A DNA stretch of 64,000 bases from Melioribacteraceae bacterium. GTDB taxonomy: Bacteria > Bacteroidota > Ignavibacteria > Ignavibacteriales > Melioribacteraceae. Below the pieces are notes generated by a model. The model made no database searches. It saw nothing but the letters and a program-made list of their open reading frames with translations, and was not told the DNA's origin. The DNA is taken from assembly GCA_016927595.1 (NCBI GenBank), contig JAFGMI010000028.1:1-64000 (forward strand), written 5' to 3'. Below are positions 3,988 through 23,022 of this stretch, one piece after another; the stretch's first letter is position 1; each line of letters begins with the position of its first letter. The position numbers and the translations under genes are program-made.

Positions 3988-4437
3988 TTACTCTTTTTTC
4001 GAACATTTATCGCTGTTGCAAATTCCGAAAATATTAAATGAATAACCTGTGCTTTCAAAGCCGAATTTTTCAGAAATTTCATCCACAATCTGGGTTATTT
4101 TCGCATTGCTGAATTCCTGTATTCTTCCGCATTTTGTGCAAATCAGGTGGTCATGATTTTTTCTGTTAAAACTTGATTCGTAATAAGCTTTATTTTCGCC
4201 GAAATTTCTTTTTGCAAGCAAATCGCATTGTGCCAGTAATTCCAGAGTATTATAAACCGTTGCTCTCGATACATTGGAATTGTTGTTCTTCATTTTAATG
4301 AATAACTCATCAGCGGCAAAGTGTCCCTTGTATTCGATTGCAAAATCAAGAACCTCGAACCTTTCAGGTGTAATTCTGTGTTTACCCTGCTTAAGAAATT
4401 TCTTAAACTGTTCGTGTGCACTTGATATATCAATCAT
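3988..4437 (-). CDS. Fur/PerR-family metalloregulator
   Basis: This 149-residue protein is a Fur superfamily transcription factor. It has an N-terminal winged helix with recognition helix SRATVYNTLELL (57-68), an HDHLIC metal site (H95, H97) and two structural zinc pairs, C100/C103 and C140/C145. The double CxxC-type zinc site and the adjacency to peroxiredoxin and dodecin genes suggest a PerR-like peroxide sensor rather than an iron-uptake Fur. This is an inference, because the decisive regulatory ligands cannot be separated by eye. It is divergent from the 4607 operon, and the shared 169-base spacer contains overlapping palindromes that are plausible operators. Confidence 0.88.
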   Translation of the reverse strand: MIDISSAHEQFKKFLKQGKHRITPERFEVLDFAIEYKGHFAADELFIKMKNNNSNVSRATVYNTLELLAQCDLLAKRNFGENKAYYESSFNRKNHDHLICTKCGRIQEFSNAKITQIVDEISEKFGFESTGYSFNIFGICNSDKCSKKE

Positions 4438-4535
4438 ATTTATCCAGGATTTATCTTTCTAAAAAGTAAAAAATATATGTCCAATTTCAAAATACCGGAT
4501 TTAACGCTAACATAACTTTAATGTTTTGCTGAAAA

Positions 4536-8948: not shown

Positions 8949-9503
8949 ATGGAATTTTCCGATAAAGAATTAATAGAACAATTTATTTCGGGCAGTGATT
9001 ATGCTTTTAATCTTCTCGCAAAGAAGTATCAACCGAAGATTTACTGGCATGCAAGAAGAATGCTTGGAAACCATGACGATGCAGATGAACTTATGCAGGA
9101 AGTATTGCTTGTTATTTACAATAAATTAAATTCTTTCAGGTTCGATTCAAACTTGTCGACATGGATATATAAAATTACATCTACAAGAGCGATAAACTTT
9201 ATAAAGCGGAAAAATGTGAAGAGATTTTTAAGAATCAGTGACAGTAAGGAACTTTTGGACGGGCAGAATTTACATGCGGCAAAGGATATAATTAAAAATA
9301 TTGAAGATAAAGAGAAAATCGATTTAATAAATCATCAATTACAAAAATTACCGGTAAAACAAAGAGAAGTTTTCATCCTTAGAAATTTTGAGGGACTGTC
9401 TTATGATGAAATAAATAAAATTACAGGACAATCGGTAGGTGCCCTTAAAGCAAACTATTTTCATGCATTGAAAAAAATAACAGGTCTAATCGATGAACAG
9501 TAA
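8949..9503 (+). CDS. ECF-type RNA polymerase sigma factor
   Basis: This 184-residue group 4 sigma factor has region 2 at about residues 20-90, including the DADELMQEVLL segment, and region 4 at about 125-180 with QREVFILRNFEGLSYDEI. It has no region 3 and no extra domain. The last four codons overlap the start of the next gene, a single-pass membrane protein that is its likely anti-sigma factor. The divergent Spy-like gene and the downstream secreted gene point to an envelope-stress or metal-response regulon. Confidence 0.92.
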   Translation: MEFSDKELIEQFISGSDYAFNLLAKKYQPKIYWHARRMLGNHDDADELMQEVLLVIYNKLNSFRFDSNLSTWIYKITSTRAINFIKRKNVKRFLRISDSKELLDGQNLHAAKDIIKNIEDKEKIDLINHQLQKLPVKQREVFILRNFEGLSYDEINKITGQSVGALKANYFHALKKITGLIDEQ

Positions 9504-10083
9504 AGATTTAATTCTTAGGTATTTGTCTGAAAAAATGGGTCAAGCCGAAAAACTCCAGTTTGAAAAAATTCTTTCAGATTCAGAGCCGCTTCGTGAAGAG
9601 TTGGAAAAGACGAAAAAAATCTTGAGTGCTTTCAATTACTCTGTAAATACGGAAATTGATAAGTATTATTTCAGTGATCAGCTCAGACTATTTCATTCAA
9701 GACAGGAACAAACTGTAAAAAAATACACATTGGAAGAGCGAGGAATAAACATTGCTTTCGGGATGGTTGCAATTATAATTTTTATAATGTTTCTTCGCAT
9801 CGATAAAGAGGGAATTAGTTATCGCGAACAAGATTCGTTTACATACGAAACAGTGCTTGAAGATTATTCTGATTTTTACGGTATTCAGTTGAATTTAATT
9901 TCTCTTGAAAATGAAAAATCACTAGAATTAGGAACGGATTCTTTTGATAAAATAATTGAAAACAGTTTCCCGGATTATCTGCCTTCAGATGACCGGTTCT
10001 CAATATATTCGATAGAATCTTTTTTTACCGAAGATGAAATGAATGAAATGTATGCTAAAATTAAAAATAAAAAATTGCTTTAA
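9493..10083 (+). CDS. Putative membrane anti-sigma factor
   Basis: This 196-residue protein has one hydrophobic segment at about 88-105 and a cytosolic N-terminal helical domain of about 85 residues. The rest is an acidic extracytoplasmic C-terminal domain. The order (sigma factor, then an overlapping single-pass protein) is typical of ECF sigma/anti-sigma pairs. The zinc-binding HxxxCxxC of classical anti-sigma domains is absent, so this would be a non-zinc type. The call rests on gene order and topology. Confidence 0.65.
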   Translation: MNSKDLILRYLSEKMGQAEKLQFEKILSDSEPLREELEKTKKILSAFNYSVNTEIDKYYFSDQLRLFHSRQEQTVKKYTLEERGINIAFGMVAIIIFIMFLRIDKEGISYREQDSFTYETVLEDYSDFYGIQLNLISLENEKSLELGTDSFDKIIENSFPDYLPSDDRFSIYSIESFFTEDEMNEMYAKIKNKKLL

Positions 10084-10690: not shown

Positions 10691-10774
10691 GCGGAAGTGG
10701 TGAAATTGGTATACACGCTACTTTGAGGGGGTAGTGCTCGCAAGGGCGTACGGGTTCGAGTCCCGTCTTCCGCA
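10691..10774 (+). tRNA. tRNA-Leu (anticodon GAG)
   Basis: This 84-base class II tRNA has acceptor stem GCGGAAG/CTTCCGC with discriminator A, a D arm with GGTGAAATTGG, anticodon stem CTACT/GGTAG around loop TTGAGGG, a variable arm stem and a T arm GGTTCGAGTCC. Loop positions 34-36 read GAG, decoding CUC and CUU. The long variable arm confirms the leucine class. CCA is not encoded. Confidence 0.93.
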
Positions 10775-10802
10775 CACTTTTCACAAGAAAAAAGGAAATA
10801 TC

Positions 10803-11567
10803 ATGACTAAGAATACTTTGGCAATTCTTTTAACATTTCTCTTAGCCGCGAATTTCTTGTTTGCTCAGGATGTTGAGATGAACGCTGATGCTGCTAAACT
10901 TTACAATGAAGGGAATCAGCTTGTAAAATCAGGTCAATTTCAGGGAGCACTCGAAAAATATAATGCAGCAACCGCAATACAGAAGGACTACCGGATAGAA
11001 TATCAAAAGGGTATTGTACTTAAAAAATTAAGAAAGTTTGTAGATGCTGAACAAGCATTCAAGGAATCAATAAATCTGAAAAATGATTTCGGTGTTGCTT
11101 ATAATGCTTTAGGCGGTACATATTATAGCAACGGCAAGTATCAGGAAGCAATTGATGCTTTTACCAAATTTCAAGGATTTGCCGATAAAGAATCGCATAA
11201 GAAAAGAGCAGATGTAAATATTTCGCGTGCGTTTACCAAACTTGGTGAAGCCGCTAAAAGCGATGGCAATTTCCAGAAAGCCGTTGAGTATTTAACGAAA
11301 GCGGTTGAACATGATACATACGATGCCGCTTATTTACTCCTTGCTGAAACAAAGATAGATTTAGGAGATTATGCAGGTGCTCTTGAGGCTGCTGATAAAG
11401 CGTCAAATTATCGTAAGAATATTCCCAAAGGCGGACCCTATTATTATAAAGGATTAGCTTTTAACAGCCTTGGTGATAAAGTCAAAGCAAAAGAAGCTTT
11501 CGAAGAAGGGAAAAAGGATCCGAAATATAGAAGTCTTTGTGAATACCAACTGAAACATGGTATCTAG
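10803..11567 (+). CDS. Secreted tetratricopeptide repeat protein
   Basis: This 254-residue protein has an N-terminal signal peptide ending near NFLFAQ (about residue 21), followed by about six TPR-like helical pairs (for example GNQLVKSGQFQGALEKYNAA and AYNALGGTYYSNGKYQEAI). It is probably periplasmic and acts as a protein-binding scaffold. The partner is unknown. ATG 10803 was chosen because a longer in-frame start at 10734 lies inside tRNA-Leu. A strong terminator follows. Confidence 0.82.
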   Translation: MTKNTLAILLTFLLAANFLFAQDVEMNADAAKLYNEGNQLVKSGQFQGALEKYNAATAIQKDYRIEYQKGIVLKKLRKFVDAEQAFKESINLKNDFGVAYNALGGTYYSNGKYQEAIDAFTKFQGFADKESHKKRADVNISRAFTKLGEAAKSDGNFQKAVEYLTKAVEHDTYDAAYLLLAETKIDLGDYAGALEAADKASNYRKNIPKGGPYYYKGLAFNSLGDKVKAKEAFEEGKKDPKYRSLCEYQLKHGI

Positions 11568-11584
11568 AGAAATGATTATCTAAT

Positions 11585-11615
11585 AAAAACCCCCTTGAAC
11601 GGGGGTTTTTTATTT
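11585..11615. terminator. Strong bidirectional terminator
   Basis: AAAAACCCCC (11585-11594) and GGGGGTTTTT (11601-11610) form a perfect stem around a 6-base loop, with a T run on each strand. It separates the plus-strand TPR gene from the convergent outer-membrane protein gene. Confidence 0.9.
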
Positions 11616-12208
11616 TAAAGAATCCTGATCAAAATTGTAGCATTAAGTGTTATTGCGGATAGAGTCTCTTCGTCATCATCGTCCTTTCCCACAAGATTGA
11701 ATACACTGTATTTAGCTGAAACATCTATATCGATGGTAGGAAGAATTTTTATATCGAGACCTGCACCCAGATTTGCACCGAATCTTGATTCATCAACTTT
11801 TAATTTTAGTGTTTCATTATCTGTTTTCAACTCAATATCCTGTATCGTAGTTTGAGTTAAATCAAGACCTACATAAGGATTTATTGGTCCGGGGAGCAGA
11901 ATTAATTCCGCACCAATACCTATGGTATTAAGTCCCGAAGTAACCTCGACACCCGATTCCTCGGATGAAAATGAATGCATCAGATAAGATCCGACAATGT
12001 TTAAAGGTAAAACCGGTAGTCCCAATTTAGCTTTTAAACCGTAATGAATTTCCGAGCCAAATCCAAGCCCGCCTTCGGTAAGCTTTTTAGTATAATCGTC
12101 AGGAGCTGTAATATTGGTTATACCTCCACCGGCGCCGATACGCAGACTTTGCGAAGAAATTGGATATGAAATGATTATTAACAACAAAATCATCATTATT
12201 TTTTTCAT
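11615..12208 (-). CDS. Small outer-membrane beta-barrel protein
   Basis: This 197-residue protein has a signal peptide ending near residue 20 (SYPISSQ), then alternating polar/hydrophobic beta strands with frequent glycines and no hydrophobic helix. It ends in the aromatic-poor strand LNATILIRIL. The layout is that of an 8- to 10-stranded OmpW/OmpA-like barrel. A loop with KDDDDEE is strongly acidic. Function is unknown. A clear GGAGG site fixes the start. The gene is divergent from the DUF92 operon. Confidence 0.7.
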   Translation of the reverse strand: MKKIMMILLLIIISYPISSQSLRIGAGGGITNITAPDDYTKKLTEGGLGFGSEIHYGLKAKLGLPVLPLNIVGSYLMHSFSSEESGVEVTSGLNTIGIGAELILLPGPINPYVGLDLTQTTIQDIELKTDNETLKLKVDESRFGANLGAGLDIKILPTIDIDVSAKYSVFNLVGKDDDDEETLSAITLNATILIRIL

Positions 12209-12262
12209 TGATCCTCCATAATTGAGTTGAATTACAGCGTAAAGTCTCTAAATGGAACTTTA

Positions 12263-13840
12263 ATGTCAAGAATTATTTATTCCTTTTTAGCCCCGTCACA
12301 AATATTTTCAGATAACTGCATCTTTCTTTATATTTATTATTTAATAAATATTAACAGTTTTGTGACGGAACTAATAAGCATTTTTCTATTTACTTCACTT
12401 TTTATTCTGATTATCATCGCTCAGATTTGGGTCATGAAAAATTCCAGATTCCCGGCGGAAAGACAGGAAGTAATAATTTCTTTAATTGCTCTAGTTTTAG
12501 CTTTTACAGCTCTCCTTGTCAGCAAAAGATCAGTTTTATTTAATTCCAGCATAGTTGTTTTTGTTTTGACGTCGATAAACTATATTTATATTATAAAACG
12601 TAAAGAAAATCCGAATAAGATTTTTCTAAAATCTTTATTAATACTTTTTCTGGTTTTTACAATTTTATTAAACCCCCTTTTTGAACTAAGTTCTAAAAAT
12701 ATATTCTCTGCATTTTTGATCACAGCGGTTCTCTCATTCAGTAGTGGAATTACTAAATGCAGATCCTTTCTCCAAAATTTTAATTCTGCTGACTTTAAAG
12801 ACCTTACGTATGGATTTATTAAAAACTTTTCGATAATTGTTTTACTCTTAATTTTACTTGATTTATTTTTATTTCCGGATGTTCAGATTTTAATTGCCAA
12901 ATCTTATATTGTTAAATTTGCATTTCTGATTACTGTCGGAGCTGCTATTACATCAGCAGTGTTGTTGTCTGATCCTAGTAGTGAAAAATTTACAATCCCT
13001 TTAATAAGTTTCATATTTGTTTATATTTATACTGACAAACCCGATTTTATAATACCTGTTATTACGGGATTCTTTGCTGCAGCAGTAATAGCATTAGTTT
13101 CCTATAGGGTAAAATTTCTAACTTTAAACGGAAGTATTGCGACGTTTTTATTGGCGGGTTTTATTTTCGGACTGGGGGGATGGAAATGGAGCATACCTAT
13201 ATTAAGCTTTTTCATATTATCGAGTATACTATCGAAAATCAGAAAACAAGTCCATGCAGAGATTGAAGGTTACTTTGAGAAGAGCGGTGTCAGAGACTAT
13301 TTACAGGTTTTTGCCAACGGAGGTCTGGGAGGAATACTTGTGGTGGTGAACTTTTTTTATCCAGAGGAATTATTCTATGCTATGTATCTCGCATCACTGG
13401 CTGCGGTTTGCGCTGATACATGGGCGACCGAAATTGGAACATTAAAAAAAACAAGTACGTATAACATATTAAATTTTAAAAAAGTGGAACAGGGAGTCTC
13501 GGGAGGAATTTCCGTAGCCGGCACATTAGGAGCCTTTGCCGGGGCTTTAACTATTTATTTATCAGGAATTTTGTGGATTGAAACTCACATTTTTGAAAAC
13601 CTTATTTTCGTTCTTCTTGCGGGAGTGGGGGGAAGTTTATTTGACAGTCTGCTGGGAGCAACAATACAAGTGCAATATATTTGCGCAAGCTGCGAGAGAC
13701 TTACCGAAAAAACTGAACACTGTAATGTAACTTCCCGGTATTACCGCGGATTAACCTGGATGAATAATGACACTGTTAATCTCTTTGCATCCTTCGCCGG
13801 TATTTTTATTATAGTAATTATTAATTTATTCAGAGTCTGA
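12263..13840 (+). CDS. DUF92/TMEM19 family multi-pass membrane protein
   Basis: This polytopic membrane protein has about a dozen helices, and its C-terminal ~260 residues match the DUF92 (TMEM19/VTE6-like) family. Recognisable segments are LNGSIATFLLAGFIFGLGGW, ADTWATEIGTL and GGSLFDSLLGATIQ. Plant VTE6 phosphorylates phytyl phosphate, so an isoprenoid or lipid phosphate kinase role is possible but unproven here. The N-terminal half is an extra hydrophobic domain without a clear match. The start is uncertain: ATG 12263 is used, GTG 12362 is an alternative, and TTG 12227 seems too close to the divergent gene. Its TGA overlaps the next ATG by one base. Confidence 0.75.
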   Translation: MSRIIYSFLAPSQIFSDNCIFLYIYYLININSFVTELISIFLFTSLFILIIIAQIWVMKNSRFPAERQEVIISLIALVLAFTALLVSKRSVLFNSSIVVFVLTSINYIYIIKRKENPNKIFLKSLLILFLVFTILLNPLFELSSKNIFSAFLITAVLSFSSGITKCRSFLQNFNSADFKDLTYGFIKNFSIIVLLLILLDLFLFPDVQILIAKSYIVKFAFLITVGAAITSAVLLSDPSSEKFTIPLISFIFVYIYTDKPDFIIPVITGFFAAAVIALVSYRVKFLTLNGSIATFLLAGFIFGLGGWKWSIPILSFFILSSILSKIRKQVHAEIEGYFEKSGVRDYLQVFANGGLGGILVVVNFFYPEELFYAMYLASLAAVCADTWATEIGTLKKTSTYNILNFKKVEQGVSGGISVAGTLGAFAGALTIYLSGILWIETHIFENLIFVLLAGVGGSLFDSLLGATIQVQYICASCERLTEKTEHCNVTSRYYRGLTWMNNDTVNLFASFAGIFIIVIINLFRV

Positions 13841-16812
13841 TGAAAAAAATATTTTTAACACATTTCATAATATTTATATATTTATCTTCAAGTGCTCAGG
13901 ATATTACTCCAAAGTTCAATTCTGCTGTTCAGCTTTATGAACAAAATAACTTCGCAGAAGCTTATAAAATATTCGACAGTATTATTGAAGAGTATGATGC
14001 CGAATCCAGATTCGTTTCGTCGTCAAGTTACTATGCTGCAAGTTGTTTATTTAAATTAGGACAAATAGAAGGGAGCATTTCAGGTTACGAGGTCTTTATT
14101 GATAGATTCAGGTTATCAAGTTTCAGAGAAAGAGCGCTTTATGAACTTGGAATTATATATTATCAAAATAAAAGATTTTTTAAAACGAGGGAGAAGCTGC
14201 AACTGCTTCTCAATCAATACCCTGATACTGAACTAAAGGGATCCTGTTATTACTGGATAGGTAAATCGTATCAGAATGAACAGAATTTCATTGATGCAGA
14301 AACAAGCCTGCTTGAAGCAGTATCTTTGAGACAACTGAATAAATTCATAGACTATACACTGTACTCACTTGGAAATCTCTATGAAATGATTCAGCGTTAT
14401 GATGAAGCTGTGATTTACTACGATGAACTTTTATCCTATTATCGTGATAGCGAGCTGCTTCCGTTTGCCCAGCTTCGGATTGGGGCAAGTTATTATAAAT
14501 TAAACGAATACGATAAAGCTGTTCTTGAATTATCCGATCCTTCTACCGGCAATCTTCCACCTGATCTTATTAATGAGGCACAGTATCTGCTTGCAAGCAG
14601 TTTTTTCAAATTGAAGGAATATGAGAATGCACAAAACACTTACCAGAAAATACTAAGCAAGTACACGGATGAAAAAATTAAGAGAGAAGTAGAATATAGT
14701 CTGGCATGGATTAGTTTTCAGATGAGGGAATATGAAGAATCTTACCGTATGTTTCAAAAATTAGCTGTGACTGAAGAAGATTCAATAGCTGAAAATTCTT
14801 TTTACTGGAGTGCAGAATGTCTTCGTTATTTAAACAGGAATGAGAATGCGCGGGATACTTATCAGGCATTTATTGAAAAGTATCCTTCAAGTAAATTGAC
14901 AGGTAATTCAAATTTTAGTCTCGGAATTATCGAATATAATAGTAAGAAGTTCCCGCAGGCTGAAAGATATCTTCTGATTGCGGCTAATACCGACGATGAT
15001 ATTGTTAAAGGTAAAGCATATTCTCTTCTCGGCGAAATAAGTTTAAGTAAAAATAATTATGAACAGGCTAAAGAGTATTTCCAGAATTCGTTGAAACATG
15101 CGGTATTAGTTGAAAATATATCGAATAATGCTATTCTAGGTTCGGGTATTGCTGAATACTATTTACAAGAATATGAAAAAGCAATTGCCGACCTCAGTGA
15201 TCTTTCCTCTAGACAGCCCGGATTTGAAAAGTCCAAGGTGAATTTTTATCTGGCTGAATCTTACTTTGCATTGAAAAATTATGAAACTGCAATTAAGCAT
15301 TACCATAGAACCGGCGATGATGATGAGGCAATAAAAAGAATGTCTTTGTACGGCAGAGCTTTTGCATACTTCAATATGAAGGATTACCCGAATGCAGCAT
15401 TCTACTTCAGGGAATTCATCCGGAAATATCGGAATGATAAAAATATTGTAGAGGCAAAGTTAAGACTTGCGGACAGTTATTTCGGGATGAAGGAATTTAA
15501 TGATGCAGGTGAAATTTATACCGAAATTTTTTCATCGGGGGGAATTAAACTTGATAACGATTTCGGTTATTATCAATACGCTCAATCGCTTTACAAATCA
15601 GGTCAATTAAACAGGGCTGTTGAAGAGTTCTCAAAGCTGCAGAAGCGTTATCCTGATTCGAGATATGCAGATGATTCTCAGTATTTAATAGGATGGATTA
15701 ATTTCCAGCAGAATGATTTTAGAGAAGCAATTTCAAATTATAAAAAGATATTTAGTGAATATCCCCGTTCAACCGTTAAACCGATTGCAATATATTCCAT
15801 AGGTGATTCTTATTATAATATGGGCGAATATGACTCTGCGCTTGTGAATTACAAGCGATTAATTAATGAGTATGCAAATACGAGATTCATATTCGACGCC
15901 GTTAACGGTATTCAGTATTGTTACATGGCAATGGATGAGCCTGATAAAGCAGTCGATATTATTGATGAATTTATAACCGATAATCCGGGATCTGAAATGG
16001 CAGATGAAATACTCATGAAAAAAGGGGAGATATTTTACAGCATAGGTAAATACGAGAAAGCAGTCGAAAGCTATAAGGAATTTATACTTCTATACGCAAA
16101 GAGTAAGCTTATTCCGGAGGCTTATTACTGGCTTGCCAAAAGCAGTTCTTTGTCAAATAATAAGCAGGAAGCCATTGAAAACTTTAAAGTTGTTACCGGT
16201 GAATATATAGGTTCCAAGTATGGTGTAGATGCCGTTATTGAACTAGGTGATGTCTATGAATCTGACTCGGATTACAAAACAGCACTTGAATTATACAATA
16301 CTTCGCTTCAGAGAATTAAGGATGAAAATAGAAAACCTGAAGTCATGTATGAAAAAGCTATGGCATTAATTTCACTCAAGGATTTCTCAGCTGCCTACTC
16401 ATCATTAAATGAAATAATAAACTACTACGACGGGACACTATTTGCCGATAAAGCGAAAATTGAACTCAGCCTCATTGAAATCGCGAGGTCTGAATTTGAG
16501 AATGCAGAATCTTTGTTAAAAGAACTGGGGGTCAAACGACTGGATGATATTGGTGCGCAGGCGCAATATTTGTACGGAGTAGTTTTAATGGAACAAGGTA
16601 AAACAGACGATGCAATATCGGCGCTCGTTAGAGTCAGATCGGTATTTTCAAATTATGATTACTGGTATTCGAAATCTCTTATAGCTCTAGGCGATTGTTA
16701 TAAAATTAGAAATGATAAAAAAAGTGCGAGGGAAATGTATCGTGCTGTAATTCAAAAACATTCCAAAGATGAACTTGGTGCTGAAGCCAGGCAAAAATTA
16801 AATAAACTATGA
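13840..16812 (+). CDS. Large secreted TPR protein (YbgF/CpoB-BamD-like repeats)
   Basis: This 990-residue protein has a signal peptide ending near residue 19 (LSSSAQ). The remainder is about 25 TPR units rich in Tyr, Phe and Glu, with repeated motifs such as ALYELGIIYYQNKRF and PIAIYSIGDSYYNMGEY. The repeat style is that of the periplasmic YbgF/CpoB and BamD group. No enzymatic domain is visible. It probably acts as a long periplasmic scaffold. It is coupled to the DUF92 gene upstream (1-base overlap) and to a barrel gene downstream (4-base overlap), within the operon that ends in exbB-exbD-tonB. Confidence 0.85.
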   Translation: MKKIFLTHFIIFIYLSSSAQDITPKFNSAVQLYEQNNFAEAYKIFDSIIEEYDAESRFVSSSSYYAASCLFKLGQIEGSISGYEVFIDRFRLSSFRERALYELGIIYYQNKRFFKTREKLQLLLNQYPDTELKGSCYYWIGKSYQNEQNFIDAETSLLEAVSLRQLNKFIDYTLYSLGNLYEMIQRYDEAVIYYDELLSYYRDSELLPFAQLRIGASYYKLNEYDKAVLELSDPSTGNLPPDLINEAQYLLASSFFKLKEYENAQNTYQKILSKYTDEKIKREVEYSLAWISFQMREYEESYRMFQKLAVTEEDSIAENSFYWSAECLRYLNRNENARDTYQAFIEKYPSSKLTGNSNFSLGIIEYNSKKFPQAERYLLIAANTDDDIVKGKAYSLLGEISLSKNNYEQAKEYFQNSLKHAVLVENISNNAILGSGIAEYYLQEYEKAIADLSDLSSRQPGFEKSKVNFYLAESYFALKNYETAIKHYHRTGDDDEAIKRMSLYGRAFAYFNMKDYPNAAFYFREFIRKYRNDKNIVEAKLRLADSYFGMKEFNDAGEIYTEIFSSGGIKLDNDFGYYQYAQSLYKSGQLNRAVEEFSKLQKRYPDSRYADDSQYLIGWINFQQNDFREAISNYKKIFSEYPRSTVKPIAIYSIGDSYYNMGEYDSALVNYKRLINEYANTRFIFDAVNGIQYCYMAMDEPDKAVDIIDEFITDNPGSEMADEILMKKGEIFYSIGKYEKAVESYKEFILLYAKSKLIPEAYYWLAKSSSLSNNKQEAIENFKVVTGEYIGSKYGVDAVIELGDVYESDSDYKTALELYNTSLQRIKDENRKPEVMYEKAMALISLKDFSAAYSSLNEIINYYDGTLFADKAKIELSLIEIARSEFENAESLLKELGVKRLDDIGAQAQYLYGVVLMEQGKTDDAISALVRVRSVFSNYDYWYSKSLIALGDCYKIRNDKKSAREMYRAVIQKHSKDELGAEARQKLNKL

Positions 16813-18395
16813 AAAAGTTAATAACATTATTCATCATCTCGTGCAGTCTGCATGCCCAGCAGTCGGAAGGTCAGAGTATTGAGTTGCCCGATTTCGTTAT
16901 CACCGGTGTACAGAGTATATCAATTCCCGAAATGGAGAAGCAGAAACCGGACCTTATCCAGTCTTTATCAGAAGAATTCTTTACCCCACACTTTCTTCCC
17001 CATGAATTAAACCTGAAGGATTATTCAACTCCTAACGGAATAGATTACAATATTTTTCGTCAGCTGGAATATAATACTGGCACACTAATCCTGGGTGCCG
17101 GAAACAACACACTGCCTGCAGGTCATTTATACTTTAACCAAAATTATAATCAATTTCTTCTGAATACACACTTGTGGGGATCAAATACAACCGAATATAT
17201 TAAAAATGCCGGTTATAATGAGTCCGGACTTTCCGCGTCTGCCGATATTTTTACGAACAGTAGTTCTTCATTTCTACCAGGACTTAAAATAAATTTTAAT
17301 GGTCTGTATTTCAGGGACAATTATAAATTATATGCATCTTCTGACCCCGGTTACAAAAGGCAGAAGGAAGGCTATAAGAGTGAGATTTCAATCTCCAGTC
17401 TGGTTTCAGATAGAATTAAATATGGCATGGATGGTTCTTACGAAGGCATTAAATTCAGAGATACTAACTTCAAGGAAGAAGTTATTAAAGCAGGGGGTTT
17501 CGCTAAACTTAATTTCGGAAAATTTGGTGTTGAAGTGAAAGGAGGTTATCAAAAGCAGCACCTAAGAAACACCTTTCTGCCTTTGAGAGATTACGATTAC
17601 ATTTTTACCAACGCTGATTTACTTTTTGGTTTTATTGATATTATGAATTTTAAAATCGGTGCTTTTTATTCGAAACTTGGGAATACAGAATTCTTTTCAC
17701 CCACAGCATCGGTTGATATAAAAATTGATGAAGGGATTTTATTGTTTGCTGAATACGATCCCAGAACCGAATTCTTCAATGTAAATGATATATTAAACGA
17801 CAACAGATACTTTGAACCTTTATTCAGAAATAATGTTTTGAAAAAAGTTGAAAGCCATATAATGCTTGCTCTTAAATATGATTATTCTGAACTCATTGAA
17901 ATCAGCGTAGGTGCCGACTACAAACAAGTTGACAATCAGCCGTATTATAATGATTCAGTGAATAAAGGAATATTTAATATTATTACACTGAATGATATTG
18001 AGCACCTCAGATTCTTCAGTCATCTGATTATACACAAAAACAGGTTCGGATATTTAATTGCAGATATATATTACAACGACATTGAAGATAAAAATGATAA
18101 GACCGTTCCTTATGTGCCGGACTTGGAAATCAGTGCTGCTTATAATTTTATTCCATTCGGAAGAATTGAATTTATCCCTGCTTTATTTTATGTAGGCAGG
18201 CAGTATATTGATGCAGCAAATACCATAAACTTATCACCTTATATTGATTTATCACTTACGGCAAAATATCAAATGTTTTCAGGCTTTAAGATTTGGATAG
18301 AATTAAACAATATATTGAATCGAAGCAATTTTTTATTTAATGGATACCAGGAAAAAACATTTGATATAATTGCAGGTATAGATTACCGTTGGTAA
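16809..18395 (+). CDS. TonB-receptor-like beta-barrel without a visible plug domain
   Basis: This 528-residue protein has a signal peptide of about 16 residues and then a short segment, IELPDFVITG (about 24-33), that resembles a TonB box. The rest is continuous amphipathic beta strands with an aromatic C-terminus (FDIIAGIDYRW), as in TonB-dependent outer-membrane barrels. The roughly 120-residue plug domain expected between box and barrel is not recognisable, and the protein is short for a receptor. It may be a barrel that contacts TonB without classical gating. Substrate is unknown. It overlaps the TPR gene by four bases. Confidence 0.65.
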   Translation: MKKLITLFIISCSLHAQQSEGQSIELPDFVITGVQSISIPEMEKQKPDLIQSLSEEFFTPHFLPHELNLKDYSTPNGIDYNIFRQLEYNTGTLILGAGNNTLPAGHLYFNQNYNQFLLNTHLWGSNTTEYIKNAGYNESGLSASADIFTNSSSSFLPGLKINFNGLYFRDNYKLYASSDPGYKRQKEGYKSEISISSLVSDRIKYGMDGSYEGIKFRDTNFKEEVIKAGGFAKLNFGKFGVEVKGGYQKQHLRNTFLPLRDYDYIFTNADLLFGFIDIMNFKIGAFYSKLGNTEFFSPTASVDIKIDEGILLFAEYDPRTEFFNVNDILNDNRYFEPLFRNNVLKKVESHIMLALKYDYSELIEISVGADYKQVDNQPYYNDSVNKGIFNIITLNDIEHLRFFSHLIIHKNRFGYLIADIYYNDIEDKNDKTVPYVPDLEISAAYNFIPFGRIEFIPALFYVGRQYIDAANTINLSPYIDLSLTAKYQMFSGFKIWIELNNILNRSNFLFNGYQEKTFDIIAGIDYRW

Positions 18396-18423
18396 ATTAT
18401 AATATTTCATAAAAAAAATTAAA

Positions 18424-20046
18424 ATGATGAGCAGGGAAAAATTAAAAAGTATTATTGCTGAAAGGCTGGAATTATCGGAGAATGAAAAAGAATTTGCATT
18501 CGGCGCATTAATTAAGAGAGTTACGGAGAAATTATCTTTCAGTGAAGCTCTTAAAATAAATAACATCGGAGTTTTTCAATTAAAAAAAGAACCCTTACCG
18601 AGGCAGGAAAGATCATCTCTTCTTTCCGCCGCTGCCAGAGAGAAAAGAACACTAATTTATTCACCCCCTTTCGAAAACTTAAAAGGCGATATCAATTCCT
18701 TGTTTCTTACACTCGACCTTGACGATTTTACGATGATATCGGGTGATGATGTGGATAATGTTTTCAGTTTAAGCGTTAATAAACCGATTATTTCCTTAAG
18801 TGATGAAAGCAGCTCCGATCAGACTGAACATGATAAGGAAATCGGCAGGGATGAATTAATCGACAAAGAAATTTCAGCGCTTGTTGAGAATGGAGCTGTA
18901 TTGAGGAACTTTGATATCTGGGAAGAATACCTGAAATTCAGCGGGGGCATGAAACAGGATACCGCCGATGATAATACACAGATAGATGAAATAGTAAAAT
19001 CTGAAAGTATGGATGAGGTACTTCCGACGGACTTACCTGCGGAACCGGATATAATAAAAAGTAAAATTGAAGATGCACAGGAACCTGCTGCAGGTTTTTC
19101 TGATGAATTGAATGACGACTTAAAAGCATTTGAAGAGATTGCAGAACTGGAGAAGAGGTTAACTGGTATTGATTCATCTGATGATGAATCGCTGCTTGAA
19201 GATCAGGAGCAGGAAATTGAGGAAGAATCTGATTCAATTCTTGATGAAAACGAAGAAGTGGATATTTCCGAACTTATTGGCGAAGAAAGTGAAATTTCTC
19301 TTGCACAGGAAGGGGATGAGATTAAAGATGATGACAAATCTTTATTTGATGAATTAGAGGATTATTTAAAAGAAGGTGACGATACTGCAGATCAGATCGC
19401 AGAAGAAATTGAGAACGATGATTCAGATGAACCGGTTTTGAAAAAATCTGAGGATATTAGTGTTAAAGAGGAAATTATCACCGATAAAAAGGATGAACCG
19501 AAAGACGAATTGAAGAGGGATATAGCAGGTAAAAGTCGCGAACCGTTTTATCTTAATCCGGCATTTGTTGTAACGGTCTCTGTTCTTATTATTGCAACGA
19601 TTATTTATTTTATTTTCATACCTGAGTTAAATAAAAAGGACGATATCGTTGCAGAGCCTGAGAATACCAGTATCTCTGTTCCTCCCCGTGAAGAGTTAAA
19701 CCCTCCCCTCGGGGAACAACCTGTCGATAAGAAAGTGGAACATCAGGTTGAACCTGTTGAGTCAGTAAAATCCGAAAGAACAGGATTATACAGAGATATT
19801 AAAAACGATAATCAGGTTGCTAATCAGATTTTTTATGATGGTGATGTTTATACTGTTCAGGTTTCATCATGGAGAAGTTCCACTATTGCCGAGCGGGAAG
19901 TTGAAAGATTAAAAAAAGCCGGTCACGATGCGTTCATTTACAAAGTGTACCTGGAATCGAAGGGAAGCACTTGGAACAGAGTTAGAATAGGATATTTTAA
20001 TACGCTTGAAGAAGCAGAAGATTTTTTGGTAAAAAACAGTTTCTAA
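18424..20046 (+). CDS. HU-like/SPOR fusion membrane protein
   Basis: This 540-residue protein has an unusual domain order. Residues 1 to about 100 look like the HU/CCDC81-type fold of Bacteroidota (helices, then a KINNIGVFQLKK hairpin). An acidic, low-complexity linker (about 110-370) is packed with Glu and Asp. One transmembrane helix lies at about 380-400. A short linker leads to a C-terminal SPOR domain (about 473-540, beginning VYTVQVSSWRSS). SPOR domains bind denuded septal peptidoglycan. The topology places the HU-like domain in the cytosol and SPOR in the periplasm. Three genes for an ExbB-ExbD-TonB motor follow directly. Confidence 0.82.
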   Translation: MMSREKLKSIIAERLELSENEKEFAFGALIKRVTEKLSFSEALKINNIGVFQLKKEPLPRQERSSLLSAAAREKRTLIYSPPFENLKGDINSLFLTLDLDDFTMISGDDVDNVFSLSVNKPIISLSDESSSDQTEHDKEIGRDELIDKEISALVENGAVLRNFDIWEEYLKFSGGMKQDTADDNTQIDEIVKSESMDEVLPTDLPAEPDIIKSKIEDAQEPAAGFSDELNDDLKAFEEIAELEKRLTGIDSSDDESLLEDQEQEIEEESDSILDENEEVDISELIGEESEISLAQEGDEIKDDDKSLFDELEDYLKEGDDTADQIAEEIENDDSDEPVLKKSEDISVKEEIITDKKDEPKDELKRDIAGKSREPFYLNPAFVVTVSVLIIATIIYFIFIPELNKKDDIVAEPENTSISVPPREELNPPLGEQPVDKKVEHQVEPVESVKSERTGLYRDIKNDNQVANQIFYDGDVYTVQVSSWRSSTIAEREVERLKKAGHDAFIYKVYLESKGSTWNRVRIGYFNTLEEAEDFLVKNSF

Positions 20047-20065
20047 TAATTTTCAGGGAAATTTT

Positions 20066-20689
20066 ATGAGTTTGTTTTCAATCATAATTAAGGGAGGCTG
20101 GTTATTAATTCCCATATTCATCGCCTCTATCATCGCGGTTGCAATAATCATTGACAGGTATATCGTTATAAAGAAATCTAAACTGAATGTGCCTTCGTTT
20201 TTAGTTAAGATAAGAGCTTTCCTGAAGCGGGGAGATATCGACAGCGCAATCGAATATTGTATGGAGGATAAATCCCCTTCCGCTAATATTGTTAAGAAAG
20301 GTCTGAAAAAGATAAATCTGGGACATGAAAGGGTGAAGGAAGCAATTGAAAGCGCCGGGAAGCAGGAGATTAATAAATTGGAAAAAGGTCTTTCTGTTCT
20401 GGCAACAATTTCTGGTGTTGCTCCGCTGCTTGGATTTCTTGGTACCGTTACAGGTATGATTTCGGCTTTCATGAAGATTGAAGATCTGCAGGGAGCGGCT
20501 AATCCCAGCGACCTTGCCGGAGGTATCTGGGAAGCATTACTTACCACTGCGTTCGGATTGGCGGTCGGAATTATAGCACTTTCGTTTTACAATTATCTTG
20601 TTGCAGCAATAAACAAACTTGTGCTGGATATGGAAATAATATCAAATGATGTGATTGATATACTGGAAGAAACTAACAGTCATAACTAG
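20066..20689 (+). CDS. exbB: MotA/TolQ/ExbB proton channel protein
   Basis: This 207-residue inner-membrane protein has three hydrophobic helices (about 10-30, 115-140 and 160-185). It carries the family segment GLSVLATISGVAPLLGFLGTVTGMI followed by AxxAFGLAVGIIAL. It forms the pentameric stator that uses the proton-motive force with ExbD. It lies 19 bases after the HU-SPOR gene and 15 bases before exbD. Whether it drives a TonB or a Tol-like function cannot be decided from this subunit. Confidence 0.93.
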   Translation: MSLFSIIIKGGWLLIPIFIASIIAVAIIIDRYIVIKKSKLNVPSFLVKIRAFLKRGDIDSAIEYCMEDKSPSANIVKKGLKKINLGHERVKEAIESAGKQEINKLEKGLSVLATISGVAPLLGFLGTVTGMISAFMKIEDLQGAANPSDLAGGIWEALLTTAFGLAVGIIALSFYNYLVAAINKLVLDMEIISNDVIDILEETNSHN

Positions 20690-20704
20690 GGGAACGATTG
20701 TAAC

Positions 20705-21109
20705 ATGAAATTTGATATGTCAAATAAACCACTGAATATTTTCAGTTTCTCATCATTGACTGATATTGTAATGCTGCTTCTGATTTTCTTCCTGTTAACA
20801 AGTCAATTTGTTATTCAGACAGGTGTTAAAATTAAACTTCCGGGCGCAAAAAATAACGAACAGGTTGCTCCGTCAAGAACAATCGTTTCCATTACCGATG
20901 ACAGAAGGATTTATCTAGGCAACGAGGAAACAACAGTAGAAGCGCTTGCCGGAAAAATCTCACAGCTGTTCCCCGATTTGACGGAAAAGAACCTGATTAT
21001 TCGTGCGGATAAAGATGCCAATATTGATATTGTAATAAAAGTAATTGATGCGGCAAAAGGAGTTGGTATCAGTAAGTTTACTATCGAAACGGAGAAAAAA
21101 ACTTTCTGA
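20705..21109 (+). CDS. exbD: Biopolymer transport protein ExbD/TolR
   Basis: This 134-residue protein has one transmembrane helix (about 18-38) carrying the conserved protonatable aspartate in SLTDIVMLLLIFFLL. A periplasmic domain of about 95 residues ends in IDAAKGVGISKFTIETE, typical of ExbD/TolR. It pairs with ExbB to form the energising motor. Its TGA overlaps the tonB ATG by one base. Confidence 0.93.
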   Translation: MKFDMSNKPLNIFSFSSLTDIVMLLLIFFLLTSQFVIQTGVKIKLPGAKNNEQVAPSRTIVSITDDRRIYLGNEETTVEALAGKISQLFPDLTEKNLIIRADKDANIDIVIKVIDAAKGVGISKFTIETEKKTF

Positions 21110-21792
21110 TGAGAGTAGGTAGATCAATTAATCTTGCTTATGTAATTTCTGCTCTTGTTCACATTATGCTTATGGTATTATTTATGGCATTCAGGTTCTC
21201 AATTGAGCATGAGCAGGAAGATTTTGTAACTGTTGGATTCGGGACTTACGGTGAATTGAGTTCGTCCGGTAAACAGCCTGTGGTAAAGGAAATAGAAGAT
21301 GAAAATAAGGTTGAGAAAAGAGAAGAGAAAAAGCCTGAGGAAAAAAAAGTCGAAGTCCCGGCAACTAAAAATCTCGATGAAAACAATGTTCAAGTAACTC
21401 AAAAAGAGAGTAAAGATGAAAAACCCGAAGAAACTCCTAAGACGGCTGATAAGGATGAAAATAAAGATAAAGGCAGGGAAGTAGCGGGAGAAGGATCAGG
21501 TAAATTCGGTTTATTCGATATTGAATGGGGAGGCAAAGGCAAAAGAAAAATTTACAGTTACAACATACCTCCGTATCCGGAAGGTGTCGCAAAAGAGATA
21601 GATGTAAAACTGCGTTTTACTATTCTTCCCGATGGTACTGTGGGACGGATTTTCCCGTTGATTAAAGCTGATACGAGACTGGAAACTGCCGCAATCAATT
21701 CATTGAGGCAATGGAGATTTGAACCTCTTCCAACATCACAGAAAGAAGCTGAACAGAGCGCAGTTATCATTTTCCCTTTCCGGCTCCGCTAA
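21109..21792 (+). CDS. tonB: TonB-like energy transducer
   Basis: This 227-residue protein has an N-terminal transmembrane helix (about 9-28) and a long linker of alternating Glu, Lys and Pro (about 60-130). The C-terminal domain is TonB/TolA-like, with YPEGV near the start, ILPDGTVG in the middle and the AINSLRQWRFEPL helix, all characteristic of TonB C-terminal domains. It transmits ExbBD energy to outer-membrane proteins, plausibly the barrel encoded two genes before exbB. Its 3' end overlaps a convergent small membrane protein gene by 26 bases. Confidence 0.88.
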   Translation: MRVGRSINLAYVISALVHIMLMVLFMAFRFSIEHEQEDFVTVGFGTYGELSSSGKQPVVKEIEDENKVEKREEKKPEEKKVEVPATKNLDENNVQVTQKESKDEKPEETPKTADKDENKDKGREVAGEGSGKFGLFDIEWGGKGKRKIYSYNIPPYPEGVAKEIDVKLRFTILPDGTVGRIFPLIKADTRLETAAINSLRQWRFEPLPTSQKEAEQSAVIIFPFRLR

Positions 21793-22063
21793 AAATGTCC
21801 TTGTAATAAAATCTGTAAATAAAAAACTCCGACACTGAAAGTATTAACAACGAAATCGTATCATTTGTTAATTCTTTACTCAGACCTTTCAGCGGTAATA
21901 ATAATTTTACTAACATTGCCGTAAGCGACCATCCGATGGTAAATATGAGAATAACAAGAATGAGATTTAAGAATGCGTTTTTATAGGATTCTTTTTTTGA
22001 AATCTTTCTGAATAACCAAATAAAGAATATCAGATGCAGAATAAAAATAAAAAGCGAGATCAT
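21767..22063 (-). CDS. Small three-helix membrane protein, unknown
   Basis: This 98-residue protein has three hydrophobic helices (about 2-18, 29-55 and 68-88) and a basic C-terminus. No family is recognised. It is accepted as real because it lies three bases downstream of another membrane-protein gene on the same strand and is almost entirely hydrophobic with clean topology. Its last codons overlap the convergent tonB gene by 26 bases, which is unusual but possible. Confidence 0.55.
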   Translation of the reverse strand: MISLFIFILHLIFFIWLFRKISKKESYKNAFLNLILVILIFTIGWSLTAMLVKLLLPLKGLSKELTNDTISLLILSVSEFFIYRFYYKDIFSGAGKGK

Positions 22064-22066
22064 GAA

Positions 22067-22576
22067 TTATTCTAATCGGTTTGACGATTTTGAACTTATG
22101 ATTTGTGCTCCTATAAGACCACCAATTATACCGAAAATAGTATTAATCACAAGGTTGTTCGCGATAACTGCGAAAGAGTATAAAAAAGAAAATCCGCTGT
22201 TCTGAATGTCATATACCACTGACGAAAGCATTTCATGAGCCTGTTCAATCATCGAAGAAGCCAGCGGAAACTCTGATATCATTTTTTGGAGTTCGGGATA
22301 AGCTACTACCAAATCGTTATTCTTCGTGATTAATGTAATAAAAATTTCAAATGAACTGCCGAATAATGCAGCCCATAGTCCGGTAAGCAATCCCAAAATT
22401 AATCCCTTCGACAACTTCATCTGCCCGGTCAGATTGTTGGCTCGCCTGTCGAGTATAATTGCTATGTAAGCAGCTACAGGTATAATCAGGCAGCATGAAA
22501 AACTTTTTGCTACCGGAACAATTTGAAGTACACCTGCACCGAATCCCGCAACAAAGGTTGAAAGATATTTTCTCAT
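22067..22576 (-). CDS. Conserved-looking membrane protein, unknown
   Basis: This 169-residue protein has about four transmembrane segments (about 5-40, 56-84 and 130-160). The N-terminus contains AGFGAGVLQIVPVAKSFSCC with adjacent cysteines, followed by a basic cytosolic loop. It overlaps the upstream DUF2085 gene by four bases (ATGA), so the two are translationally coupled and probably work together. I do not recognise a named family. Confidence 0.65.
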   Translation of the reverse strand: MRKYLSTFVAGFGAGVLQIVPVAKSFSCCLIIPVAAYIAIILDRRANNLTGQMKLSKGLILGLLTGLWAALFGSSFEIFITLITKNNDLVVAYPELQKMISEFPLASSMIEQAHEMLSSVVYDIQNSGFSFLYSFAVIANNLVINTIFGIIGGLIGAQIISSKSSNRLE

Positions 22577-23022
22577 CTGAATTCTTGAATTAGTTTTTCA
22601 ACACCATTTCTAATATATAAAAAAGAGAGCGAACCAAAAAATATACCGGTTGAGAATGCTATCGGTATGTTGTAATCGTATACTCCCAAATTATAAAAAA
22701 TTATATCGATCACAATAGCAAAGATTGATAAATAATAGAGATAAGACTTTGGGGAAATAATACGTGATGTGAATAAGCTAAGGGTGCTCGCAAAAAAAGC
22801 TCCTGAATATATTCCAGTGCATCTGGCACACAGAAGAGTACAGCCGTCATCACAGCAGATTAGTTTGTAATCTACCCGGTGACAAACAAGTGAATATGCT
22901 CTACCGGATATAAAGTCAATAATCTTTAACCACTGAAACTTATCTGAAAATAAAGGTGCGAAGTTTATTAAGAGCCATATAAATAACAAAAACCATATTA
23001 AGAAGTTGACTGTCTTATTCAA
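22573..23022 (-). CDS. DUF2085 family membrane protein
   Basis: This 149-residue protein has about four helices and the cysteine-rich DUF2085 signature: CH in SLVCHRVD, then CCDDGCTLLCARCTGIYSG. The conserved Cys/His set suggests a metal or redox centre at the membrane, but the family has no established function. Translation starts at TTG 23022 just after the NHL-repeat gene, and the stop overlaps the next gene. The run NHL, DUF2085 and two small membrane proteins looks like one minus-strand operon. Confidence 0.78.
   Translation of the reverse strand: MNKTVNFLIWFLLFIWLLINFAPLFSDKFQWLKIIDFISGRAYSLVCHRVDYKLICCDDGCTLLCARCTGIYSGAFFASTLSLFTSRIISPKSYLYYLSIFAIVIDIIFYNLGVYDYNIPIAFSTGIFFGSLSFLYIRNGVEKLIQEFR

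Follow-up and report, generated by a model that had tools for sequence, protein, structure and literature searches.

Of the systems that carry the proton-motive force across the bacterial envelope, two come closest to the locus considered here, a run of seven genes in a 64,000-nucleotide stretch of a Melioribacteraceae bacterium (Bacteroidota; Ignavibacteria; Ignavibacteriales; assembly GCA_016927595.1, contig JAFGMI010000028.1, positions 1 to 64,000 of the forward strand), which is called the window throughout. The Tol-Pal system (TolQ-TolR-TolA-TolB-Pal-CpoB) shares with this gene set a motor driven by the proton-motive force together with its transducer, a periplasmic partner made of tetratricopeptide repeats (TPR), an element that binds the cell wall and a partner in the outer membrane, and in green sulfur bacteria the Tol-Pal operon also has the same DUF92 neighbour. 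The module in the window differs, however, in that neither TolB nor Pal was detected in its genome, in a motor that scores far below the TolQ, TolR and TolA cut-offs and falls outside the TolQ clade, and in the use of a SPOR domain for wall binding and of a barrel of the TonB-dependent transporter (TBDT) type as the outer-membrane partner. With the Ton system, known from receptors such as FhuA and BtuB, it has in common ExbB, ExbD and TonB, the transporter barrel fold and a motif resembling a TonB box near the mature N-terminus, but its barrel is plug-less, occurs mostly as one copy per genome throughout the phylum, and is accompanied by TPR and SPOR partners.

For the phylum itself, the published picture is a divided one. 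As far as the available text of PMC7391070 goes, tol-pal beyond Proteobacteria is found principally in Chlorobi, Chlamydiae and Acidobacteria, whereas an almost complete Tol-Pal was reported for Bacteroidetes from hidden Markov models (PMC8871954, in the portion available). The latter claim disagrees with the TolB and Pal counts given below and with what could be seen of PMC12204202. The accessible part of PMC12204202 proposes PorE, a single lipoprotein that combines parts resembling CpoB, TolB and Pal, as the tether between outer membrane and peptidoglycan in Bacteroidetes; unlike PorE, the module has its own motor and barrel. BamG is likewise an outer-membrane barrel that is conserved in Bacteroidota and absent from Chlorobiota, but it is a 14-strand protein of the FadL type (PMC12611786, available text), whereas the barrel of the window is TBDT-like, and an identity of the two was ruled out.

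Our best reading of the locus, held with about even confidence, is that its core (TPR protein, plug-less barrel, SPOR protein, ExbB-ExbD and TonB) forms one trans-envelope machine that does the work of Tol-Pal, most likely at division. A role of this kind, rather than the import of nutrients, had already been suggested in a preliminary description of the locus, and it is favoured here by the mostly single-copy distribution of the barrel, by its mutual exclusion with TolB and Pal and by the shared DUF92 neighbour. We found no description of such a module in the literature, of which subscription papers were thinly covered.

Organisation of the locus

Seven open reading frames follow each other on the plus strand at 12263-21792, each with one terminal stop, in a genome of 3.85 Mb that is 99.8% complete. 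Their features are as follows:

12263-13840, plus strand: DUF92 integral membrane protein (PF01940, 212 bits); start uncertain, the reading frame opening at 12227
13840-16812, plus strand: exported TPR protein of 990 residues (TPR_6 in seven stretches; TIGR02795, ybgF)
16809-18395, plus strand: plug-less TBDT-type barrel protein of 528 residues (profiles, AlphaFold2, structure alignment)
16878-16907, plus strand: residues 24-33 of the barrel protein, TonB-box-like motif in its disordered N-terminal tail (conservation, AlphaFold2)
17064-18392, plus strand: residues 86-528 of the barrel protein, barrel of about 22 strands (AlphaFold2; DSSP elements counted by eye)
18424-20046, plus strand: HU-SPOR protein, with HU-like N-terminus, one transmembrane helix and C-terminal SPOR domain (ATG codons at 18424 and 18427)
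19564-19620, plus strand: predicted transmembrane helix of HU-SPOR, residues 380-398 counted from 18427 (hydropathy)
19846-20028, plus strand: SPOR domain, residues 474-534 (PF05036, 2.5e-10)
20066-20689, plus strand: motor protein of the ExbB/TolQ family (PF01618, 122 bits; module ExbB clade)
20705-21109, plus strand: protein of the ExbD/TolR family (PF02472, 96.5 bits; D20 conserved)
21109-21792, plus strand: TonB-type force transducer, with transmembrane segment carrying S14...H18, Glu/Lys-rich linker and TonB C-terminal domain (PF03544, 29.2 bits)

When recomputed, the junctions between these genes came to -1, -4, +28, +19, +15 and -1 bases in 5' to 3' order, so that the tight run of the preliminary description (overlaps of 1-4 bases and gaps of 15-28) is real. 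Its statement that no terminator separates the genes was borne out as well: a scan of 11000-23000 gave 13 terminator-like sites against 7.6 expected, none of them at a junction of the set, and the strongest hairpin (11585-11610) lies upstream of it. Promoter-like sites were about as frequent as by chance (46 against 44.1 expected); since one of them, with an extended -10 element, occupies the end of the barrel gene (18341-18370), a second transcription start ahead of the HU-SPOR gene is possible. All seven genes had been taken together as the system, a view that did not survive for DUF92 and the HU domain, which are lineage-specific members outside the core, nor for ExbB and ExbD as constant members of the operon, as the counts below make clear.

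A barrel without a plug and its conserved tail

The protein at the centre of the set gave no match in Pfam, the plug domain PF07715 included, and its sequence profiles reach chiefly the C-terminal part of TonB-dependent transporters. In a model computed with AlphaFold2 from a 37-row alignment, a barrel begins at about residue 86, with mean predicted local distance difference test (pLDDT) values of 77-96 in ten-residue blocks from 91 on, whereas residues 13-85 stay below 50 and appear as a disordered tail instead of a plug; the preliminary description was right to call the barrel plug-less. The modelled barrel resembles FhuA (VIA-align Z 23.5, 430 aligned residues, root-mean-square deviation 2.9) and BtuB (Z 22.9; Foldseek E 6e-18), which together with its strand count places it among the transporter-type barrels; the absence of a family from the VIA-align lists was not counted as evidence. 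A distant orthologue (L234; AlphaFold2, 25-row alignment) shows the same arrangement, with residues 12-97 disordered and a TBDT barrel thereafter.

A feature overlooked in the preliminary description is the motif IELPDFVITG (residues 24-33), which comes after the signal peptide and, despite its disorder, is more strongly conserved than any other ten-residue window of the protein, with 3.86 bits compared to 1.83 in the rest of the tail and 1.63 in the barrel; seven of the 14 invariant alignment columns fall within residues 25-33. A box-like pattern, devised only after the tails had been inspected, fits 35 of 37 tails of the order, against 2.9 in shuffles; among 41 tails from outside the order it fits 24, against 2.4 in shuffles, and misses 17. 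At the position of the motif, other classes carry strands such as EIVVTT, TVTVTK, FVIRK and IEIRS, and a box of the same kind was seen by eye before the plug in 11 of 12 ordinary receptor reading frames (LSEVIVSA, LENVIVTS, LGEVVVTS, LDEIVVTA). By this resemblance we read the tail motif as a putative TonB box, and since it is conserved, the barrel is the likely target of the motor through it.

The motor

The ExbB, ExbD and TonB matches all exceed their Pfam cut-offs, and the residues expected of a Ton motor are kept in at least 97% of 33-36 sequences: S14...H18 in TonB, D20 in ExbD (n=33), and T127, E156, T160 and T161 in ExbB. The roles that we assign to these residues are in part presumed. 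For the other part they follow PMC7391070, within its available text. On the other hand, the proteins of the window stay below the NCBIfam cut-offs for TolQ (103.9 vs 221), TolR (52.7 vs 127.3) and TolA (29.9 vs 59.45). In the positive control, the Tol-Pal locus L275 of a green sulfur bacterium (family f24), TolQ (239.8) and TolR (132.5) passed together with TolB, Pal and YbgF, and TolA (32.1) was also below its cut-off. In a tree of ExbB and TolQ sequences, where rows on long branches are unsure, the ExbB proteins of the module form one clade of 59 rows (support 99/94) apart from the other sampled ExbB and from TolQ. A derivation of the module motor from TolQR at a shared locus was considered and found unsupported, the TolQ of Chlorobi grouping with both TolQ and ExbB of E. 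coli, whose rows drew a program warning for long branches.

Such genuine Ton-type proteins could belong to ordinary nutrient uptake, in which case ExbB, ExbD and TonB would serve the cell's many receptors, with the remaining genes as housekeeping neighbours. The genome would give them enough to do, as it holds 37 plug domains elsewhere and 11 TonB_C matches; the preliminary description was thus right that a typical receptor is missing from the operon, although not from the genome. Nevertheless, a second set, ExbB-ExbD-ExbD without an adjacent tonB (L074:8561-10235, contig C14), is present in the same genome, its ExbB falls in another clade, and it could be the one that serves ordinary receptors. 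With a barrel that is plug-less, widespread and mostly single-copy, and a gene order that persists across most of the order and a large part of the class, we regard this explanation as quite improbable. Contig C55 of the same genome (L075:502-9582) carries flagellar genes with, by eye, two pairs of the MotA/MotB type.

The TPR and HU-SPOR proteins

The TPR protein is of very constant size, its orthologues in 37 loci of the order having 987-1018 residues. It matches TIGR02795 (ybgF) with 294.7 bits against a cut-off of 90.1, a score spread over 10 repeat stretches of the 990-residue array. It also reaches 125 bits with NF052312 (PorW/SprE), and the GltG/AgmX profiles weakly touch TonB, from which one might assign the locus to type IX secretion or gliding, with a PorW/SprE-like scaffold energised by the motor. 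This we consider very unlikely, as the PorW/SprE cut-off is 250, twice the score obtained, and TPR arrays are prone to generic cross-matches.

The following gene encodes a SPOR domain (PF05036, 41 bits vs a cut-off of 21) on a protein with a predicted membrane helix. SPOR domains recognise glycan stripped of its peptides, according to the portion available of PMC6895207, and it is from this domain that we infer a septal role of the set. The HU-like domain at the other end of the protein scores 19.1 bits, below the cut-off of 22.4. A chromosome-envelope tether could be imagined from it, in which HU would bind the cytoplasmic DNA and SPOR and TonB would provide the links to the wall and the outer membrane, so that the nucleoid is positioned or segregated; the SPOR protein, or else a separate neighbouring gene, does indeed carry an HU-like or HU-CCDC81 domain, and an HU-type gene follows the barrel in L218, L222 and L229, and weakly in L216 (in L222 and L229 without SPOR). 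The orthologues in L193 and L196, however, carry SPOR alone, with no HU found, and given as well the sub-threshold score in the window, the tether is the faintest of the explanations weighed here. HU-CCDC81 proteins were reportedly treated by Burroughs et al. in 2017. The HU-SPOR orthologues of other classes match the corresponding families of Bacteroidetes, PF18174 and PF18175 (HU-CCDC81/SPOR), whereas the protein of the window has a single HU-like domain, which is divergent; what is new here is the link of HU-SPOR proteins to barrel, TPR protein and motor.

Distribution of the module

The preliminary description had asked for conservation of the gene order in related genomes, and this was found: the barrel is present in 38 of 39 genomes of the order, that of the window included, and the order of genes is retained, beyond what chance would give, in most of the 38 loci, which come from 37 genomes and some 35 genera. 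For G034, the sole genome without the barrel, one stretch was scanned (L362) and gave no match to the module. A broader set comprises 80 loci in named assemblies, mostly of Ignavibacteria, which are the best 80 of 84 relatives retrieved by one motif pattern and overlap in genomes with the 38 loci of the order, for which reason the two sets are not summed. In this set the TPR gene lies directly upstream of the barrel in 80/80 loci and SPOR comes after it in 77 (absent 1, contig end 2), while ExbB is present in 66 (absent 5, contig end 9) and TonB in 64 (absent 2, contig end 14). DUF92 precedes the module in 36 and is absent in 32, with 12 contig ends (36 of 68 readable), and farther away it falls to one of 21 readable loci in the rest of the class and none of 26 in other classes. 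Two further samples were drawn from an earlier hit list, best first and spread over families, and hence are not random. In the 26 loci from the rest of the class we counted TPR in 23, SPOR in 22, TonB in 22 of 25 readable and ExbB in only 8 of 25 readable; in the 33 from other classes (of which one, L227, is an ordinary receptor) TPR in 26, ExbB in 19, SPOR in 14 and TonB in 9.

At the scale of the phylum, a profile search of 296 Bacteroidota genomes at E<=1e-25 found the barrel in 206 of them and in 122 of 140 genera (200 genomes at E<=1e-40, the other six being weaker). A single match was obtained in 205 of the 206 genomes, in contrast with the 12-55 plug domains per genome counted in 39 relatives. 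The interpretation in the preliminary description is supported in part, and it now extends beyond the single operon to a module that spans the phylum and is mostly single-copy. An earlier tally of 216/296 was dropped as a measure of distribution because its weak hits in family f24 are nearly all partial, and G178 was rejected as a carrier in family f24, having a 572-residue reading frame with a plug-like N-terminus and no TPR neighbour.

The constancy of the TPR-barrel pair in all three sets of loci, where it is the most constant part, invites comparison with TPR-plus-barrel exporters such as PgaA, BcsC, AlgK-AlgE and Slam. The pair would then be an export machine, in which a wide unplugged barrel acts as a secretion channel opened or driven by TonB via the tail; a plug-less barrel of such a size would, from the model, be a wide pore, and a weak match to TPR_Slam (PF24575) stays below threshold (29.5 vs 35.2 bits). 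But in exporters of the Slam and PgaA type TPR and barrel are joined, whereas here they are separate chains, the pair travels with SPOR and a motor, and no synthase or cargo gene was noticed in the flanks, which were viewed without a systematic survey. Moreover, a single-copy gene in most genomes of a phylum is ill-suited to a dedicated cargo, and we hold export to be unlikely.

For the Tol-Pal-like machine that we prefer, a flanking gene lends some weight to a possible role in division. Three of five loci of family f28 carry, divergent from the TPR-barrel pair, a gene for an FtsE-like ABC ATPase identified by profile, which was not found in L224 and L235:

L223, 3495-4178: FtsE-like gene, divergent from the TPR gene
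L232, 3691-4374: FtsE-like gene, divergent from the TPR gene
L234, 13622-14305: FtsE-like gene, divergent from the TPR gene

As a separate observation, L222 has a thioesterase gene of the YbgC/FadM family divergent from the TPR gene (4043-4471; TIGR00051, 104 bits), and L215 and L229 have related genes at a distance of 4-5 kb from the barrel; in E. coli, ybgC precedes tolQ.

TolB, Pal and DUF92 in green sulfur bacteria

The absence of TolB and Pal noted in the preliminary description could be extended to the whole genome at the thresholds used. TolB was sought with PF04052, which gave no match, and with a 12-row alignment (11 TolB of Chlorobi and that of E. coli), which gave none at E<=1e-20; Pal was not found with TIGR02802 at E<=1e-36, weaker OmpA-family proteins being possible. 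Over the 296 genomes, near-full-length TolB occurs in 63, all of family f24, the next match being a partial propeller (8e-54), and Pal (TIGR02802, E<=1e-36) in 60, again all f24 and all above the cut-off, among them G249, which has no TolB row. PF04052 was discarded as a detector, as it hit 19/296 genomes and missed many f24 TolB proteins; because it also matches the control Bacteroides ihuae, TolB_N-like domains exist outside f24. The FMO protein, which we take to mark f24 as green sulfur bacteria, was found in all 12 f24 genomes tested and in none of 4 others. None of the 206 barrel rows belongs to f24, and weaker hits in 24 of its genomes are nearly all partial, mostly C-terminal, and lie in long frames of about 600-940 residues. 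In the genomes searched, the barrel and TolB/Pal are therefore mutually exclusive.

The operon of f24 runs DUF92-TolQ-TolR-TolA-TolB-Pal-(Pal)-CpoB. Of 15 tol loci, 13 are readable at this point, and in all 13 tolQ is immediately preceded by DUF92 (L275, L283-L291, L325-L329; L284 and L287 are cut by a contig end and L329 has its TolB on another contig). Since DUF92 heads both Tol-Pal in f24 and about half of the readable module loci, we take it as probably linked in function to the coupling of outer membrane and wall, which is no proof that one system replaced the other in place. Nine of the 15 tol loci have two Pal genes in a row, five have one and L329 none; L275 has between tolA and tolB a gene for, by eye, an enzyme of the thiamine-diphosphate type; and in L292, a blind pick, no tol gene was seen. 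The N-terminal half of the DUF92 protein of the window (12263-13000) lacks an RK..LH-like motif of several relatives, a motif known from polyprenol-kinase-like proteins.

A proposed mechanism and the points against it

In the machine proposed here, which would have a dedicated motor, ExbB and ExbD would convert the proton-motive force into a movement of TonB, whose C-terminal domain would grip the disordered tail of the barrel at its TonB-box-like motif and pull. In the absence of a plug that could be pulled out, the force would enter the barrel itself, and the outer membrane would be drawn to, or held at, a site set by the SPOR protein on denuded septal glycan, with the 990-residue TPR solenoid as periplasmic scaffold. 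The outer membrane would thereby be coupled to the cell wall, and the machine would be equivalent in function to Tol-Pal. Of this picture, the gene set with its order and distribution, the barrel fold, the conserved motif, the retained motor residues and the failure to detect TolB or Pal are results of computation; the binding of TonB to the tail, the force, the septal location and the function are inferred.

Several observations weigh against this proposal. The binding of TonB to the tail is a prediction from sequence likeness, and the 80 named loci cannot test the motif because they were retrieved by it. The tail might even form a small plug within the barrel, since the aligner places parts of the tail in the models of both the window protein and L234. 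In the 33 loci of other classes, SPOR, ExbB and TonB often do not adjoin the barrel, so that the machine is not one operon everywhere, and seven lack an adjacent TPR gene, five of these belonging to family f30 and keeping HU-SPOR and motor. The 206 hits include at least one receptor that bears a plug and has no TPR neighbour (G043, L227), and in 27 of the 296 genomes both barrel and TolB are missing at the thresholds used. All carriers of TolB/Pal found are one family, and their exclusion with the barrel thus counts as one evolutionary event and not as many. Because the module ExbB and the TolQ of Chlorobi are not sister groups, the shared DUF92 neighbour is not a case of simple positional homology. 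The FtsE match (241.5) is below its cut-off of 264.85, and PorE has already been proposed for the same role, as the text available of PMC12204202 has it.

Neighbouring genes

Upstream of the operon lie a tRNA-Leu (10691-10775) and a separate TPR protein of 264 residues (10773-11567), parted from the seven genes by the 11585-11610 hairpin. Farther upstream (8949-10083), a sigma-factor-like gene followed by one with a single transmembrane segment resembles, by eye, a pair of extracytoplasmic function sigma factor and anti-sigma factor.

Implications

The module offers a concrete, widespread and mostly single-copy candidate for how Bacteroidota without Tol-Pal may couple the outer membrane to the wall, with a ten-residue motif in a disordered tail as its testable element. 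More tentatively, and at slightly less than even confidence, it may represent a third trans-envelope system driven by the proton-motive force, beside Ton and Tol, in which the barrel would be a handle for force and not a gate; it would be the standing coupling machine of outer membrane and wall in Bacteroidota, lost in green sulfur bacteria or replaced there by Tol-Pal beside the same DUF92. If true, a plug-less target of TonB would revise the view that what TonB moves at barrels is a plug.

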